From NCBI RefSeq assembly GCF_900182985.1, contig NZ_FXUY01000001.1, positions 1,054,001 through 1,118,000 of the forward strand: a stretch of 64,000 bases of DNA. Direction: 5' to 3'. Under the pieces are notes generated by a model, which searched no databases, was not told where the DNA came from, and was given only the letters and a program-made list of their open reading frames with translations. The position numbers and the translations under genes are program-made. This stretch comes from Pseudomonas helmanticensis (GTDB taxonomy: Bacteria; Pseudomonadota; Gammaproteobacteria; Pseudomonadales; Pseudomonadaceae). Numbering within the stretch: the stretch's first letter is position 1; every line of letters starts with the position of its first letter. This document shows, piece after piece, positions 14,735 to 21,312 of the stretch.

Positions 14735-14810
14735 GGAAACAGGATAATGACCACTCCCGTCAAGTTGAAAAACTTCTGGACAATGAGTAAATCCGACCGA
14801 CGGTAGCGAT

Positions 14811-14859
14811 ACCTGTCAGATCTGACAGTGGGCGATATTCCTGTATGAGCGCTTAATAA
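14811..14859 (+). promoter_or_regulatory. LuxR-type box and core promoter (left end of island)
   Basis: ACCTGTCAGATCTGACAGTG at 14811-14830 contains the perfect 16-bp palindrome CTGTCAGATCTGACAG with CT-N12-AG, the core shared by las/rhl/lux boxes. A -10-like TTAATA/TAATAA follows at 14853-14859 inside GCGCTTAATAAAC, centred about 35 bases from the dyad centre. This is the geometry expected for a LuxR-type activator overlapping the -35 region. The start codon of the next gene is 43 bases further on. A near-identical module occurs at 21154-21203. Confidence 0.6.
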
Positions 14860-14901
14860 ACTTCTCGTTAAGTTGTATTTCCGTTGTAGAGGCGGCCCTC
14901 A

Positions 14902-15720
14902 ATGTCCGAAAAAAAACCACCGGGTGATGGAAAAACTGTCGTCAGTCCTGCCCCAGCGGACCCCATCTCGACACTGGACTATGCACCTCCCGGTGTCGTG
15001 GAAGTTGATGCGAACTGGGTCATCCTCGATGTTGCCCATCAAAATGGATTGACTGTAATTGTTCCACGATGGGATTCACCTTCCCCGGACGAGTTGCCGA
15101 ATGAACTATATCTGTATTTGAATGGCACGGAGGTTTTTCACGATACTTATATCAGTCCTCTGACTCAGCTAGAGTTCCGTCCGATCATTGATTCAAAGTA
15201 CTTCTCGATCGATGGAACGTATCGACTAACGTATGAAACTGTTACCACCGGTAATCACGCCTATTCCGATCCGCGGGATCTTACTGTCAGGCGTTTGCCC
15301 GTGGTCTTGCTGCCTGAGCCCGTTTATCCGGCCGCTACACTGTGGGGGTATCTGAACTGTTTTACCCAGCCCCCAATTTGGGTGGTCGTGATCGTGCGCG
15401 TTCCGTTACCTACAAAAACAACCTGGCAGGTAGATGATGAACTGCATCTTTTTTGGGCAGGATATGAAACGCTGAATGGATCCGGTACTGCGCTTTTCTC
15501 GCATACGGTGATTAAAACACTGACAGCGCAGGATGTGATTGGTGATTATGAGTTTCGAATAACTGATTTCAAGAACTTTATAGAGCCGCTGGAAAAGGAC
15601 GCCTCAGTCCGCGCGGTATATTCGATTTACCGCAAAGGTGTACTTGTTGCTGAGTCCAGTGCGGGACTAGTGAAGATTGATCGTGCCATCCCCGGGGAAA
15701 GTCATTTCTGTGGACCATGA
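14902..15720 (+). CDS. Hypothetical protein with two Ig-like beta modules
   Basis: I do not recognise a named family for this 272-residue protein. It has no signal peptide or membrane segment. After a Pro-rich start (residues 1-25), two modules of roughly 110-120 residues follow. Each has an aromatic/beta pattern of the kind NELYLYLNGTEVFHDTYI and GTYRLTYETVTTGNHAYSDP, resembling the repeated immunoglobulin-like units of the larger protein encoded next. The gap to that gene is 78 bases, so an operon is likely. A LuxR-type box and -10 element sit just upstream. Codon use is less GC-biased than in neighbouring housekeeping genes. A surface, structural or binding role is possible but is inference only. 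Confidence 0.8.
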   Translation: MSEKKPPGDGKTVVSPAPADPISTLDYAPPGVVEVDANWVILDVAHQNGLTVIVPRWDSPSPDELPNELYLYLNGTEVFHDTYISPLTQLEFRPIIDSKYFSIDGTYRLTYETVTTGNHAYSDPRDLTVRRLPVVLLPEPVYPAATLWGYLNCFTQPPIWVVVIVRVPLPTKTTWQVDDELHLFWAGYETLNGSGTALFSHTVIKTLTAQDVIGDYEFRITDFKNFIEPLEKDASVRAVYSIYRKGVLVAESSAGLVKIDRAIPGESHFCGP

Positions 15721-15798
15721 TCAATGGTGTGTGTGTTCGATGTTGGTTAATGAAATATGTTAGTGCGGGTATCACTACTTGACGAAAGGAACTGTCAC

Positions 15799-17946
15799 AT
15801 GACAATCGATATGAAATTGAATGCGGTTCAACAGGCTGCCGAAAACTCCCGAGTAGCACTCAGGCAAAAAAGTCTGAGTGCAGGCGGAGTACTGGCGGAT
15901 TCACCGAAGCCCGTGATCGTCGGTGTGCCGAATGGGGGCACGGTTCCGGTCGCGTTGTTAAAAAGTACCGCAGCGCAAGCGGGAACCACGACAGCCGCTC
16001 GTCAGCCGGATCTGCCTGTAACATTGAGGGTTTCCGGCTGGGAGTTTCCGAATGACCGGGATATGGTGGTGATCGAGGGCTATCCATTTAAGCAAGGTGT
16101 GGATGATCCCGACAAGCCGGAGGATTGGGTTTGGGAAGTACTCCATACTGAACCGGCGCCTCCCGTTGCGGGCCGCCCGACCGAGTGGAACGTCACGATA
16201 CCTGCAGGCAAATTGACGGACCTTCCAGCGACGGGATCAGTTTCGCCCACGCACTGGAAAATCCAGAGCTCCGGAGCCTTGGATGGCAACCCGCAATACT
16301 CTGAAATCGCGGATTATTTCGTCGATATTTTTGCTCCCTTTCACAACAAGGGCGATGTACGACTCGCCCCTCCAACTCGTCTCGACTTTCCGTTACCCCT
16401 CGGCGCCAAAATTGATACCGCTTATCTGGGAACCATCGCAACCACCGGGATGGAATTCACGCTCCCGGTCACTGACGCCAAGTGGGTCTACAAGGCGACG
16501 GATAAGGCCTTCATTTATCTGAGTTCGAACTTGCGGCCGTCACGCCAGCTTGTACCCACGCTGATTGTTGACCCGGTGCCTGCGGACGGAAAAGTCTCAA
16601 TACCTGCTTCAGAGATCGGCAAACTGCAAAACGGAACCTGTTGGCTGATCATGGCCTATGAGGATGAAACCGGTAACCGCAGCCTCGATATGCTCGCCAA
16701 CAGCCGAATCGTCGAGTTTGTGCCCCTGCCTGTGCCGGCGCCTCCTGTGGTTGATGCCGCTAGCCAGGCCGGAGATAACACGATCGATATCAAGGATGCC
16801 GAGGATGCCGAGCCAACCGGTATCACCGTCAGGGTCTTTCGACCGCTCAATACTCAAGATACGGATCAGGCTACGGTCTTCGTAGAAGGCTATGAAACTC
16901 TTGAGCTTGTTCCGCCGGTGGACGCATTTGGAACCAACAATGAGTTGGTGTTCAGAATGAAGTACACAGATCTCAAATTGATCTATGCCACTGAAACGGG
17001 CGGAGACCCGGATGCCCGGGAAATTCCTCTGAGTTTCAAATGGACCTGGGTACGAGGTATCCAGACCAAAGACTCCCCGCCCGCTACGCCGGATCTGGAT
17101 TTGTCCTATCCAGGTGAGAATCCGGATGAACCCAGCTTGATCAACCGCAATTTCGCCAAGGTACAACTGCGTGGTGTCGACAATCTACTCAATATCCTTG
17201 GGCCTGGTGACCTGGTTACAGATCCGAAGGTCATCATCCCCATGCCGACCGGCAGCGCCAAATTACCTGCCAACGTTGTTTGTACCTGGTATTACAACGG
17301 GAAGCCGATCGCCGAATTTTCACCTGATGGATTGACTCAATTTGAAGGTGAGCTACCAGCTGCAGAGGTCGTCATCGGTGGTCCGGGGGAAAAGCTTACT
17401 TACTGGAGTTGTTCGTTTATCGGTGGCATCAATCCGCAACGCTCACTCGATGAAACGGTGACCGTGACAACGGTCAGGAAAACCGTACCCATTCCTGCGA
17501 TTGATAGATTGTATCTCACCACAACGATCAACTGCCCGACCGTTGGATTTGTCAGGGGAAACAAACCTCCACTCCCTTCTCTCACATTCACGACAGCAGC
17601 AGACCCGGTTCTGGCAGGCTTGAGAAGCATCACTGCGCATTGGGTCGGAACAACTAACGCTGACGGGACGGGGCCCATCTCCGGCACGGACGAGGATGTT
17701 GACATTCCAGTGACGGGTAATGAAACCACGACGGGGATCGTTGGGTCGATTGCGGAGTATCTGACTAAAATCGTGCCTATCCAGACACGGCCGGAGCCTT
17801 TCCCTGCGCCCCCTCCACCCATTACTTATGCATCACTCAAGTATTCGGTGGAATGGACAGACGGTACTAAAGCCACTTCGGACGCCACCGTGAAAATGGT
17901 TTCAATTGTTAACGGCAATCGTGAGTTCTGTCACGAGGTGAGGTGA
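15799..17946 (+). CDS. Large modular hypothetical protein with Ig-like repeats
   Basis: This encodes a 715-residue protein of unknown function. The start at 15799 (MTIDMKLNAVQQAAENSRVA) has AAAGGA nine bases upstream, so the earlier in-frame ATG at 15757 is not preferred. From about residue 55 the sequence consists of about five modules of 120-140 residues. Each is rich in beta strands and ends in a phrase like YEDETGNRSLDMLANSRIV or YADYFVDIF-like segments, linked by Pro-rich joints (PLPVPAPPVVDAA, PFPAPPPPITYAS). No signal peptide, membrane helix or cell-wall anchor is seen. It shares module style with the preceding gene and probably an operon. A hairpin lies 25 bases after its stop. Confidence 0.8.
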   Translation: MTIDMKLNAVQQAAENSRVALRQKSLSAGGVLADSPKPVIVGVPNGGTVPVALLKSTAAQAGTTTAARQPDLPVTLRVSGWEFPNDRDMVVIEGYPFKQGVDDPDKPEDWVWEVLHTEPAPPVAGRPTEWNVTIPAGKLTDLPATGSVSPTHWKIQSSGALDGNPQYSEIADYFVDIFAPFHNKGDVRLAPPTRLDFPLPLGAKIDTAYLGTIATTGMEFTLPVTDAKWVYKATDKAFIYLSSNLRPSRQLVPTLIVDPVPADGKVSIPASEIGKLQNGTCWLIMAYEDETGNRSLDMLANSRIVEFVPLPVPAPPVVDAASQAGDNTIDIKDAEDAEPTGITVRVFRPLNTQDTDQATVFVEGYETLELVPPVDAFGTNNELVFRMKYTDLKLIYATETGGDPDAREIPLSFKWTWVRGIQTKDSPPATPDLDLSYPGENPDEPSLINRNFAKVQLRGVDNLLNILGPGDLVTDPKVIIPMPTGSAKLPANVVCTWYYNGKPIAEFSPDGLTQFEGELPAAEVVIGGPGEKLTYWSCSFIGGINPQRSLDETVTVTTVRKTVPIPAIDRLYLTTTINCPTVGFVRGNKPPLPSLTFTTAADPVLAGLRSITAHWVGTTNADGTGPISGTDEDVDIPVTGNETTTGIVGSIAEYLTKIVPIQTRPEPFPAPPPPITYASLKYSVEWTDGTKATSDATVKMVSIVNGNREFCHEVR

Positions 17947-17970
17947 CGCGTACGGAGTTCCATGAATGAC

Positions 17971-17994
17971 AAGGAGGCATGAAAGTGCCTCCTT
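17971..17994 (+). terminator. Hairpin after the hypothetical operon
   Basis: AAGGAGGCA and TGCCTCCTT form a nine-base-pair stem around a six-base loop, 25 bases after the stop. The following sequence is not T-rich, so it may be a weak terminator or an RNA-stabilising hairpin. Confidence 0.45.
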
Positions 17995-18040
17995 GCGTTA
18001 TCTGTTACCGGATAGATCCGGACTTACCCTCCATGACTTG

Positions 18041-18065
18041 AGGATTAATCCTACATAAATGTAGG
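18041..18065. promoter_or_regulatory. Overlapping palindromes before the autotransporter
   Basis: AGGATTAATCCT overlaps CCTACATAAATGTAGG by three bases. Both are perfect palindromes, about 100 bases before the autotransporter start. They could be operator sites or a hairpin; no family assignment is possible. A -10-like TATGAT is at 18137-18142. Confidence 0.25.
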
Positions 18066-18162
18066 CGACTGGTCTGTAGTCTGGCGTGCGCTTTCGGGTC
18101 GGACTGCTCTGATGAGTGAGTCATCCTGGTCAACATTATGATACCTCCGAGTGGTTATTCTT

Positions 18163-20571
18163 ATGGCTTCGCACATTGGTTCGACAGACGTACCTGTTTC
18201 TTGCAAAGATAAGTTGTGCCTTGTTGCATTTTCCCTTCTGGTTACATCTTTTGCCGAGGCTCGCCCCATTATTGTTGACGAGACTATCAACAACGGAGCG
18301 CTTGTTGAGGATTTCATTGTTGGTCAAGGTGCGACGTTAACGGTTAATGACGCCACCACTCTTAATATTTCTACGAATGCGGCAAAGTTGGTGGTCAATA
18401 CTGGCACGTTGCAGGATATCAGAGCTAATAACGGTTCCACTGTCACGCTTGACAAAGCGACCGTCATTGCTCGAGCAAATCAGCCAGGGGTCACAATCAC
18501 CAACTCGATGGCAACGATCAACAACAGCACCATCACAAGTGATGGTACTGGGCTACAAGTTGCTCGCGTGCCCAGTTCTCCGCTTACGACGGTGGTCTCG
18601 TTGTCCGGTAGCACTGTAATGGGGGGGGCAAGTGGAGCCGTGGTCAGCGCACAAACTACACTCAATATGAGTAACTCAGACCTGCTGTCTCAGAGCTCTA
18701 CGGGCTACGGATTGCGTCTCGCGAGTGGAGATGTCTTCGCTAGAGGGGGGCGAATGGAAGGCGGGCTTAACGGCATACTTCTGAGTGGCGATAACTTTAT
18801 CAGTCGGGCCAATACACTTGTACTGGATGGCACTAAGGTAATAGGGGGAAGTGGCGCGGCTATCTCCGTGGACCCCAGCGGACGCCCAATTGCGACCAAT
18901 ATCCATATACTCAATGGCGCGAGTTTGACCGGCGGTAATGGCAATTTTCTGGAAGTCGGTAACAGAGGAACAGTAAATCTTATTGCTGACAATGCCGTTC
19001 TGAAAGGCGATGTGGTCGTGACAGGCGGAGCAACTACCAATATTTCTTTGCAAAACGCAAGTTCGTTGACCGGCAATCTGAATAACGTAGCAGTGATCAG
19101 CTTGAATAATCAAAGCTCTCTCAAAGGGAATGTGGGCGGCGGCGTGGCCGGCGGTTCCTCAGTGCTGATCGATAATGGCTCTACAATAGACGGGAATATT
19201 GTTGATTCTTCGCGTGTAGATATCAGCAATGGCTCTCGGTGGACCATGGCAGATAATAACCAGCTCAATAGGTTGCACCTCAATGGCGGTAATGTTGTTC
19301 TGGGGAGTGGTGGCGATTTCAAAAAACTGGATATTGTCAACCTGTCTGGTAATGGTCTGTTTGATATAAGAGCCAATTTTGCTGCTGACAAGAGCGACGT
19401 CTTCAATGTGACCGGTACGGCGACAGGTAATCATCAACTGCGGGTAGCCGCGAGCGGAACTGAATTTGCAACAGGCAACGCGATAAAAGTCGGTAGCGTT
19501 AACACGGGAGACGCCGCATTCAGCCTGTATAACGGGCGACCGGTAGATGCAGGCGCTTTCACCTACAAACTATTGAGCGAAAATGGCGGGGTGTACCTGG
19601 CGCCAGACAAGGAAGTCGTCAGTACCGGTACCAATGCAGCTCTGGCGATTGCCGGCACCGCGCCGACTATCCTGTACTCGGAAATGACCACGTTGAATAG
19701 TCGTCTTGGTGACCGACGGTTGAGTGGTAGCGAGCCCAATACCTTGACGCGGGCCACTGGCGAATCCCCCTCCGGTGTATGGATCCGCAGCTATGAGAAC
19801 CAGTACAACGTGGCTAACGCCTATGGTGACGGTTTCTCACAAAAACAGCGTGGGATATCAGTGGGAGCCGACACGCCATTTCCGTTTGGTGACGGACAGT
19901 GGCTTATAGGTGGATTCGGCGGCTACAGCAAGACTGATATGGATCTGAAGTGGGGGAGCACTGCTGCAATCGACAGTTACTATGCTGGTGGTTATTTGAC
20001 TTGGTACGATCGTCAAAGTGGTTATTACGTCGACACGGTGAGCAAGATCAACCAGTTTGATAACAGTGCCAAAATCACCCTGAGCGACGGAACTCGCACC
20101 CAGGGACACTATAAAAACCTTGCTGTAAGCGGCTCTGTTGAAGTGGGTAAATATGTTGCGTTTGATAACGGAATTTTTATCGAACCTTTTACCCAGATTG
20201 CCGCTGCCGTTGCGCAGGGCAAGGACTACACGCTCGATAATGGCATGCGAGTTAGCACTGACCACGCACGCTCACTCGTAGGTAAGGTAGGGACATCGGT
20301 CGGGAGTCAAATTCGTCTGGATCGCGGCGGAGAACTGCAGCCTCGGCTAAAGGTAGCACTGGCGCATGAGTTTATAAAAAATAACGAGGTCAGTGTAAAT
20401 GGCGCCGACTTTACTAATGATCTTTCGTCCACCAGCGTGGAGTTGGGCGCGGGCATTAACTGGGTGCCAGCGCGGAAAAGCTGGCAGGTATACTCCGAAG
20501 TCAGTACCAGCAAGGGGAAGACGGTCAACCAGGAATGGGGCGCAGGTGTAGGGTTGAGTTACAATTTCTAG
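18163..20571 (+). CDS. Autotransporter (pertactin-like passenger, type Va secretion)
   Basis: This encodes an 802-residue outer-membrane autotransporter. The N-terminus has a hydrophobic signal sequence ending near FSLLVTSFAEA, directing Sec export. Residues about 35-500 are a beta-helix passenger full of short repeats in which Asn, Gly, Ser and Thr alternate with hydrophobics (for example GATLTVNDATTLNIS and LNNQSSLKGNVGGG). Residues about 540-802 are the translocation barrel, opening with GVWIRSYENQYNV and ending in the expected terminal aromatic (LSYNF). The ATG at 18163 is preferred because the in-frame GTG at 18151 is too close to the likely promoter; neither has a strong ribosome-binding site. 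The passenger suggests adhesion or aggregation; no protease motif is evident. A strong terminator follows. Confidence 0.9.
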   Translation: MASHIGSTDVPVSCKDKLCLVAFSLLVTSFAEARPIIVDETINNGALVEDFIVGQGATLTVNDATTLNISTNAAKLVVNTGTLQDIRANNGSTVTLDKATVIARANQPGVTITNSMATINNSTITSDGTGLQVARVPSSPLTTVVSLSGSTVMGGASGAVVSAQTTLNMSNSDLLSQSSTGYGLRLASGDVFARGGRMEGGLNGILLSGDNFISRANTLVLDGTKVIGGSGAAISVDPSGRPIATNIHILNGASLTGGNGNFLEVGNRGTVNLIADNAVLKGDVVVTGGATTNISLQNASSLTGNLNNVAVISLNNQSSLKGNVGGGVAGGSSVLIDNGSTIDGNIVDSSRVDISNGSRWTMADNNQLNRLHLNGGNVVLGSGGDFKKLDIVNLSGNGLFDIRANFAADKSDVFNVTGTATGNHQLRVAASGTEFATGNAIKVGSVNTGDAAFSLYNGRPVDAGAFTYKLLSENGGVYLAPDKEVVSTGTNAALAIAGTAPTILYSEMTTLNSRLGDRRLSGSEPNTLTRATGESPSGVWIRSYENQYNVANAYGDGFSQKQRGISVGADTPFPFGDGQWLIGGFGGYSKTDMDLKWGSTAAIDSYYAGGYLTWYDRQSGYYVDTVSKINQFDNSAKITLSDGTRTQGHYKNLAVSGSVEVGKYVAFDNGIFIEPFTQIAAAVAQGKDYTLDNGMRVSTDHARSLVGKVGTSVGSQIRLDRGGELQPRLKVALAHEFIKNNEVSVNGADFTNDLSSTSVELGAGINWVPARKSWQVYSEVSTSKGKTVNQEWGAGVGLSYNF

Positions 20572-20573
20572 AA

Positions 20574-20604
20574 TAAAAAAAGGAAGCGATTGCTTCCTTT
20601 TTTG
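20574..20604. terminator. Bidirectional rho-independent terminator
   Basis: AAAAAAGGAAGC and GCTTCCTTTTTT form a stem with a GATT loop, with A and T tracts on both sides. It lies between the convergent autotransporter and 155-residue gene and would serve both. Confidence 0.9.
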
Positions 20605-20620
20605 TTTTCAATGAAACGGG

Positions 20621-21088
20621 TCAAATGACTGATGTACTGTAAGCCAGATCCCCGGAGATCATGAATGACTGTCCATTCGTATCACTTACTGTGACGTCCA
20701 ACTTGCCTGTTATGGTGCTCAGTTCATCTCTTTTATAGCCGAGCGTCAATATCACCGTGCCTTTCGTCGCGGTATGAATATACGGCTCTGGGTCGGAGGT
20801 GTCGGTATAGTCCATGTACAGTCCCTTCGGCTCGTCCGGAATAAAAAACTGGCCCGATTTTGATTCTTCTGGAAGGGCAAGGGTAATGGTTTTCTTGTCG
20901 ACTCGATTCTCATCTACTTTTACGGTGTATTCGGCAGAAAACACCCAATAGTTTCCGCCCAGGTCCGGTAGATCTTTAAGCTCAAGAGTGAAATATTTCG
21001 CGTTGAAATCTTCCGTGTCTCCATTGCGAAGTACTTTTGCAGTGAATGAGTTGACGAGTCTGATTTGTGGTTTGACTAGCGCATTCAT
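20621..21088 (-). CDS. Small hypothetical beta-rich protein
   Basis: I do not recognise this 155-residue protein. It is soluble-looking with no signal peptide, no Cys, alternating beta-type sequence (FTLELKDLPDLGGNYWVFSA) and a C-terminal half containing GTVILTLGYKRDEL and KLDVTVSDTNGQSFMI. The start at 21088 has GGAG eight bases upstream. It is convergent with the autotransporter and shares its terminator. About 65 bases upstream lies a promoter whose 20-bp LuxR-type box is 17/20 identical to that of the first gene of the island, so the two ends of the island are probably co-regulated. Confidence 0.78.
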   Translation of the reverse strand: MNALVKPQIRLVNSFTAKVLRNGDTEDFNAKYFTLELKDLPDLGGNYWVFSAEYTVKVDENRVDKKTITLALPEESKSGQFFIPDEPKGLYMDYTDTSDPEPYIHTATKGTVILTLGYKRDELSTITGKLDVTVSDTNGQSFMISGDLAYSTSVI

Positions 21089-21153
21089 GAATGTTTCTCC
21101 AGAGTTAAGGGGGAGCTAATCCATAAGCCGGATCCAGCTTAAAGCATGGATGA

Positions 21154-21203
21154 ACTATATAAGCGCGAGTGCTTTACTTTGTATACTGTCAGAGTTGACA
21201 GGT
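21154..21203 (-). promoter_or_regulatory. LuxR-type box and core promoter (right end of island)
   Basis: On the minus strand, ACCTGTCAACTCTGACAGTA (21203 to 21184) matches the left-end box at 17 of 20 positions in the same orientation relative to its gene. The core GCGCTTATATAGT follows with a -10-like TATATA at 21161-21156, again centred 35 bases from the dyad. Confidence 0.6.
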
Positions 21204-21312
21204 AGGCAGATGCAGGAAAGTGTGGATTGGTTTTTATACGTTCCCGCTATATCAAAAAGTAATTTTTGTGGCAGATTGGATGTGCGCCATCGACTGTGGA
21301 AGACAACTTTCA

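Follow-up and report, generated by a model that had tools for sequence, protein, structure and literature searches.

A dispersed LuxR-type promoter module in Pseudomonas helmanticensis and a LuxR solo as its probable regulator

A 64,000-nucleotide stretch of the Pseudomonas helmanticensis genome (contig NZ_FXUY01000001.1, positions 1,054,001 to 1,118,000; hereafter, the window) carries two LuxR-type promoter boxes that face one another across a run of accessory-looking genes. Here, we report that these boxes belong to a set of such modules that recurs through this genome and across the genus. Judged from sequence, the two boxes are probably operators of a dispersed regulon, and the most likely regulator is a subgroup A LuxR solo that is encoded outside the window.

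Box 1 (ACCTGTCAGATCTGACAGTG) and box 2 (ACCTGTCAACTCTGACAGTA) lie at the positions and on the strands that an earlier note on this DNA had given them (Table 1). Specifically, with up to three mismatches allowed, the pattern ACCTGTCANNTCTGACAGTR matches both boxes and no other site in the window, while 100 dinucleotide shuffles yield a mean of 0.07 matches and a maximum of 1. The promoters point inward, as had been described, with two genes in a row at one end, a 155-codon gene at the other, and an autotransporter gene between them. The earlier note viewed the pair as a promoter duplicated within one island. Both modules are real, yet the notion of an island-specific twin is too narrow: a whole-genome motif search, of the kind that the note proposed, finds the module about 26 times in this genome, and the set is genus-wide. 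Scanning the 6.53-Mb genome with the box pattern at up to three mismatches gave 37 strand hits, corresponding to 31 distinct sites, compared to 2 for the reversed pattern. The core CTGTCA-N4-TGACAG is present with at most one mismatch in 25 of the 31 sites, and one further core site in nearby sequence brings the set to 26; the six other sites are excluded. The sequences flanking the box differ from site to site. In 25 of the 26 cases, the distance between the box center and a start codon is 39 to 127 bp (273 bp in the remaining one), with start codons picked by a script run without a random control and site orientation taken from the downstream gene.

The promoters share a fixed architecture. 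A sigma-70 -10 matrix, fixed beforehand, was slid over 26 promoters from this genome and, in a separate scan, over 29 from genomes that possess only the helix-turn-helix (HTH) part of the solo, discussed below. Both scans peak at +32 from the box center (z 4.1 for each). Together with one promoter from genome G055, these make a 56-promoter set, of which 42 have a good -10 hexamer at +31 to +33; windows off the peak have 2 to 13. Orientation was set by the downstream open reading frame (ORF) and by box asymmetry, partly by eye; sites L143, L161, and L165 have one orientation in the promoter alignment and the other in the target set, and L148 was left out of the alignment. In the window, the hexamers CTTAAT and TTATAT of promoters 1 and 2 both begin at +32, so the earlier statement that the -10 is centered 35 bases from the dyad was correct. 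The GCGCTTA sequence common to both promoters overlaps the -10 region. Given a -10 at a fixed +32, the box center falls at about -43.5. The box is an imperfect dyad of about 20 bp with CT-N12-AG, as in class II promoters of the LuxR (lux-box) type, and its center, counted from the predicted start site, is close to the -42.5 of that class, where the -10 likewise stands at a fixed spacing. This would be the position for a LuxR-type activator, with the box replacing the -35 element.

A second element, ACCRTTCGTC, accompanies some of the boxes, mostly at -34 in one orientation and at -26 in the other. With up to one mismatch, it occurs in 8 of the 56 promoters (0.2 expected from shuffles), and with up to two in 20 (2.75 expected). 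It is more common before genes of the immunoglobulin (Ig)-like family (6/14 versus 2/42, p 0.002). Promoter 1 of the window has a copy (Table 1); promoter 2 has none within two mismatches of GACGAAYGGT.

Which protein reads the box? This genome has 19 GerE matches and a sole protein with the autoinducer-binding domain PF03472. That protein, which carries both domains, is a 237-residue LuxR solo (G000:C2:119467-120177). Its gene lies between the genes for ferredoxin-NADP+ reductase (fpr) and a 23S rRNA methyltransferase (rlmG), flanks that fit the definition of subgroup A (the PpoR locus) in passages of PMC8546723. Among named LuxR proteins, the one from Pseudomonas sp. DTU12.3 is nearest (98%). 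No luxI is present among the ORFs neighboring the solo, and a genome-wide search found no LuxI-family gene, although it also detected nothing in any of the 14 control genomes. The LuxR gene (L027:7468-8181, counterparts L088-L127) evolves rapidly: identity is 30-50% in many genomes, as compared to about 77-94% for fpr and rlmG.

The potential link between box and solo emerges from their distribution over 149 Pseudomonas genomes. Box hits were matches to CCTGTCANNTCTGACAGT with at most one mismatch, counted on both strands, so that a palindromic site can count twice. At least one hit occurs in 98 genomes and none in 51; the control gave 0 or 1 per strand in its rows. Solo matches were called at thresholds of 1e-30 for the full length and 1e-16 for the HTH. 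A strong solo match (at least 155 bits, a cut set after seeing the data) is present in 71 genomes, all 71 of which have two or more box hits (2 to 41 each). Twenty-seven genomes with a weaker match have 0 to 8 hits, and 13 genomes have a short gene, with at least one hit in 11. No version of the solo was found in 38 genomes, and 37 of these have no box hit. These co-occurrence figures, like the HTH and box statistics below, were computed without correction for phylogeny. A LuxR-type box at a class II position, and a LuxR solo as its regulator, one of the options in the earlier note, thus have support at the level of sequence and co-occurrence.

Two results go beyond this correlation, and the first concerns apparent exceptions. 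A full-length match is lacking in ten genomes that have at least two box hits (G018, G020, G022, G056, G066, G068, G083, G113, G124, and G146). In nine of them, the GerE gene at the fpr-rlmG locus spans only 85 to 131 codons from stop to stop, and its product aligns with the HTH end of the solo; in the tenth, G124, the gene at the locus is longer, though shortened. The HTH-only genomes lack the autoinducer-binding domain. Three more genomes (G092, G050, and G026, with 1, 0, and 0 box hits) have a short gene at the same locus. That HTH-only genes exist while boxes remain suggests signal-independent control in those species, a point that bears on any reading of the set as controlled by acyl-homoserine lactones (AHLs).

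Second, the HTH and the box appear to have changed in step. In G044, G070, and G138, three genomes with the same HTH type, the box center is TTTC at 22 of 41 exact sites, versus 0 of 71 in the eleven other genomes searched; TTTC is also prevalent in the short-gene genomes. Across clades, box specificity thus appears to follow the HTH. Where the solo has the recognition helix SERTV, ten syntenic orthologs have SQSTV, and their genomes have 0 to 3 box hits. SQSTV is likewise found in the proteins named for P. putida (4 examined) and P. plecoglossicida (1 examined), and 84 of 120 relatives listed for one of these proteins have it too. On balance, we lean toward a broader proposal: across the genus, the solo would activate fast-changing accessory genes; some species would have lost the sensing domain and kept the regulon, leaving a signal-blind activator; HTH and box would have diverged together; and the P. 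putida branch, the one in which this solo has been studied, would carry another HTH, with boxes few or absent.

Mechanistically, a dimer of the solo would bind the dyad through its GerE HTH, centered at about -43.5, and, standing in place of a -35 element, would recruit RNA polymerase to the -10 that begins 32 bp from the dyad center. In species with a full-length protein, a ligand may gate activation. In HTH-only species, control would be independent of signal.

Several observations weigh against the solo as regulator, in addition to the choice of the 155-bit cut. There is no good box at the gene of the solo itself. Twelve of the 27 weaker-match genomes have zero box hits, the short-gene genomes G050 and G026 have none either, and G145 has one hit with no solo version found. 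Conversely, three genomes have boxes with an interrupted solo: G074 (33 hits) has a stop at about residue 125 (L133), in G088 (7 hits) the stop falls where the HTH begins (L134), and in G086 (6 hits) the gene is in two frames (L135). These interruptions may be recent or assembly errors. A control protein, a RocA-like regulator, performs nearly as well as the solo. Over the 149 genomes, the Spearman correlation with box counts is 0.835 for the solo versus 0.78 for the control, and the area under the curve (AUC) for at least two hits is 0.914 versus 0.944. Plain correlation therefore largely reflects shared ancestry.

That control also supplies the leading alternative, namely that a RocA/BvgA-like response regulator (C1:2145932-2146555) binds the box and activates itself and the set, which would place the regulon under two-component control. 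Like the solo, it is a GerE protein, and a box precedes its gene in this genome and, judged from coordinates, in several others (e.g., G047, G062, G103, G122, and G123). Its advantage does not extend to box-rich genomes, however: at cuts of at least five and at least eight hits, the AUC is 0.886 and 0.868, below the 0.919 and 0.938 of the solo. RocA-like matches are present in 128 of the 149 genomes, box-free ones included, and in the box-rich genomes G006, G070, G078, and G138 (10-28 hits) they reach just 46-48%, a level also seen in box-free genomes; in short-gene genomes that have boxes, they are at 45-47%. The HTH-only genes at the fpr-rlmG locus would also go unexplained. We regard this alternative as unlikely.

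A second alternative is that the box is bound by a different activator from the same lineage, which the LuxR locus tracks through shared ancestry alone. Two candidate regulators, the solo and the RocA-like protein, were followed across the genus, without a tree-based correction, which leaves room for such a protein. Yet the short HTH-only genes in all ten exceptions would then be coincidence, as would the LuxR-type form of the dyad, and we consider this option quite improbable. Least plausible is a LexA-like operator or a dispersed repeat without regulatory meaning: CTGTCA-N4-TGACAG is compatible with CTGT-N8-ACAG, the LexA form, but no SOS gene, the mark of an SOS operator, is recognized among the 26 targets, the box stands where a -35 would be with a fixed -10 beyond it, and the site-to-site difference in flanks shows that this is not a copied repeat. 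Target genes and spacing led us to set the LexA operator aside; a CRP/FNR-type site was set aside on its half-site spacing.

The subgroup A solo, our preferred regulator, has relatives on which work has been published. PpoR and Ppu16R of P. putida and PplR of P. plecoglossicida, also subgroup A, occupy the same fpr-to-rlmG locus (passages of PMC8546723 and PMC10134790) and share the PF03472 and GerE domains with it; the proteins named for these two species differ in the recognition helix, SQSTV there and SERTV here. PpoR and PplR, which belong to the SQSTV branch, are reported to bind AHLs (PMC2703642 and PMC11543582), and array and RNA-seq lists of their direct or indirect targets exist. According to passages of PMC8546723 (Bez et al. 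2021), subgroup A solos occur in almost all fluorescent pseudomonads analyzed, and tests of Ppu16R on the promoters of its own gene and of the flanking genes showed no effect, with no direct target found. Those passages, and the ones on these solos in PMC10134790, name no direct target or box for the subgroup. Solo LuxR regulators of the OryR/PipR type (subgroup C), which respond to plants, are also found in plant-associated bacteria (passages of PMC8546723). They regulate the neighboring pip gene, whereas the solo here adjoins fpr and rlmG and has candidate targets scattered through the genome. Motif and solo searches of the open PMC literature, with subscription papers outside their scope, listed no paper that, judged from its listing or matched passages, describes the box or the regulon; the box strings gave either no paper or entries that looked unrelated, and one such match, in PMC11543582, is a primer.

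With the lux, las, rhl, and cep boxes, the box shares the 20-bp dyad, CT-N12-AG, and the class II position. ACCTGT and ACAGGT are common to this box and the lux box. The core of the present box is CTGTCA-N4-TGACAG, whereas the half-sites of AHL quorum-sensing boxes are CTGTA or CTGCCA. Also unlike AHL quorum-sensing systems, there are tens of dispersed targets in one genome and no LuxI was found, in a weakly controlled search. We entertained the idea of a link to the pvf/mgo diazeniumdiolate signal, given its control over virulence and biosynthesis genes; passages of PMC10194917 do not settle which protein is its receptor.

Regulator and promoter are of a known kind; what is new is the box, the proposed regulon, and the unusual sensor-less relative. 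For subgroup A solos, the results supply a box and a promoter geometry, together with about 26 candidate targets from a single genome, and they reduce the questions of target and ligand to a reporter assay. They also suggest a reason for the null result at the flanking genes in P. putida. The HTH-only genes represent a natural domain-deletion experiment. Moreover, the box flags many uncharacterized accessory genes as one candidate co-regulated set.

The target genes in this genome encode, among others, Ig-like proteins, RCC1-repeat proteins, a thioredoxin-like protein, and a methyltransferase. At L042 (G000:C2:1060000-1079000), a box precedes each of the VRP1- and SpvB-domain genes (Tc-type) and the gene for a large Ig-repeat protein, and at L036:3100-4647 (G000:C1:2220964), a box stands before a gene that joins a NUDIX (isomerase-like) domain to a family 2 terpene synthase. 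Two further targets are an ORF followed by an acyl-carrier-like ORF, and the RocA/BvgA-like response regulator. At L065 (G000:C1:2140000-2159500), an autotransporter is surrounded by a pair each of BvgS/RocS-like sensor kinases, RocA-like regulators, and EAL response regulators, side by side, and a box precedes one RocA-like gene. We also inspected 60 box loci of 24 other genomes (30 of 40 sites in one set and 30 of 112 in another, being those with loci). The script assigned a downstream ORF at 52 and none at 8. Adding the 26 targets of this genome gives 78 proteins, 20 of which, including the 272-residue window protein, fall into one single-linkage family (E <1e-3). The regulon targets are most likely lineage-specific accessory genes: Ig-fold proteins, with the 272-residue window protein among them, small beta-rich proteins, Tc-like proteins, biosynthetic enzymes, and a RocA-like regulator.

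Table 1. Promoter elements and genes at the two boxes, with positions in the window
Feature	Position	Strand	Remark
Box 1, LuxR-type dyad	14811..14830	+	predicted center about -43.5
Box 2, LuxR-type dyad	21184..21203	-	kept in genome G055
-10 hexamer CTTAAT of promoter 1	14852..14857	+	predicted transcription start near 14864 (inferred)
-10 hexamer TTATAT of promoter 2	21157..21162	-	predicted transcription start near 21150 (inferred)
Upstream element of promoter 1, GACCGACGGT, 2 mismatches from GACGAAYGGT, -26 from box center	14795..14804	+	element enriched at fixed positions, 56 promoters
272-aa leaderless-looking protein, two beta-sandwiches, largest target family	14902..15720	+	no Pfam or NCBIfam match
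715-aa hypothetical protein, likely second gene of promoter 1 transcript	15799..17946	+	putative co-transcription
Pertactin/autotransporter gene between the two promoters	18163..20571	+	no box of its own
155-aa hypothetical protein behind promoter 2	20621..21088	-	found in 2/149 genomes

From 14760 to 21260, the window has a G+C content of 50.9%, compared to 59.5% for the whole, and its lowest-G+C 6.5-kb stretch (in steps of 500 bases) begins at about 15000. Low G+C and fast divergence would fit an accessory stretch. Its proteins are largely uncharacterized. Neither the 155-residue protein nor the 715-residue one matches Pfam or NCBIfam, the latter in its longer reading of 729 residues; the shorter start was chosen by a Shine-Dalgarno-like sequence. 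The 715-residue protein is weakly similar to one other box target (E 2e-4). The predicted model of the 272-residue protein is of the beta-sandwich type (mean pLDDT 88.5, pTM 0.64). Its best Foldseek chains are Ig, fibronectin type III, and bacterial adhesin domains, at low TM-scores, and its profile matches no PDB sequence.

The second holder of the 155-residue gene is G055, where the gene likewise lies behind a box and has the same right flank. Thus, the box above this gene, whose conservation the earlier note proposed to check in orthologs, is kept in its one relative. The DUF1345 and RND genes of the flank are 95-97% identical between G055 and the window, and the 155-residue protein is 53% identical, so that here the gene has diverged rapidly behind a retained box. 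Finally, the G055 autotransporter matches the window autotransporter only from residue 255 on (65%), which points to an outer part that diverged or was replaced.

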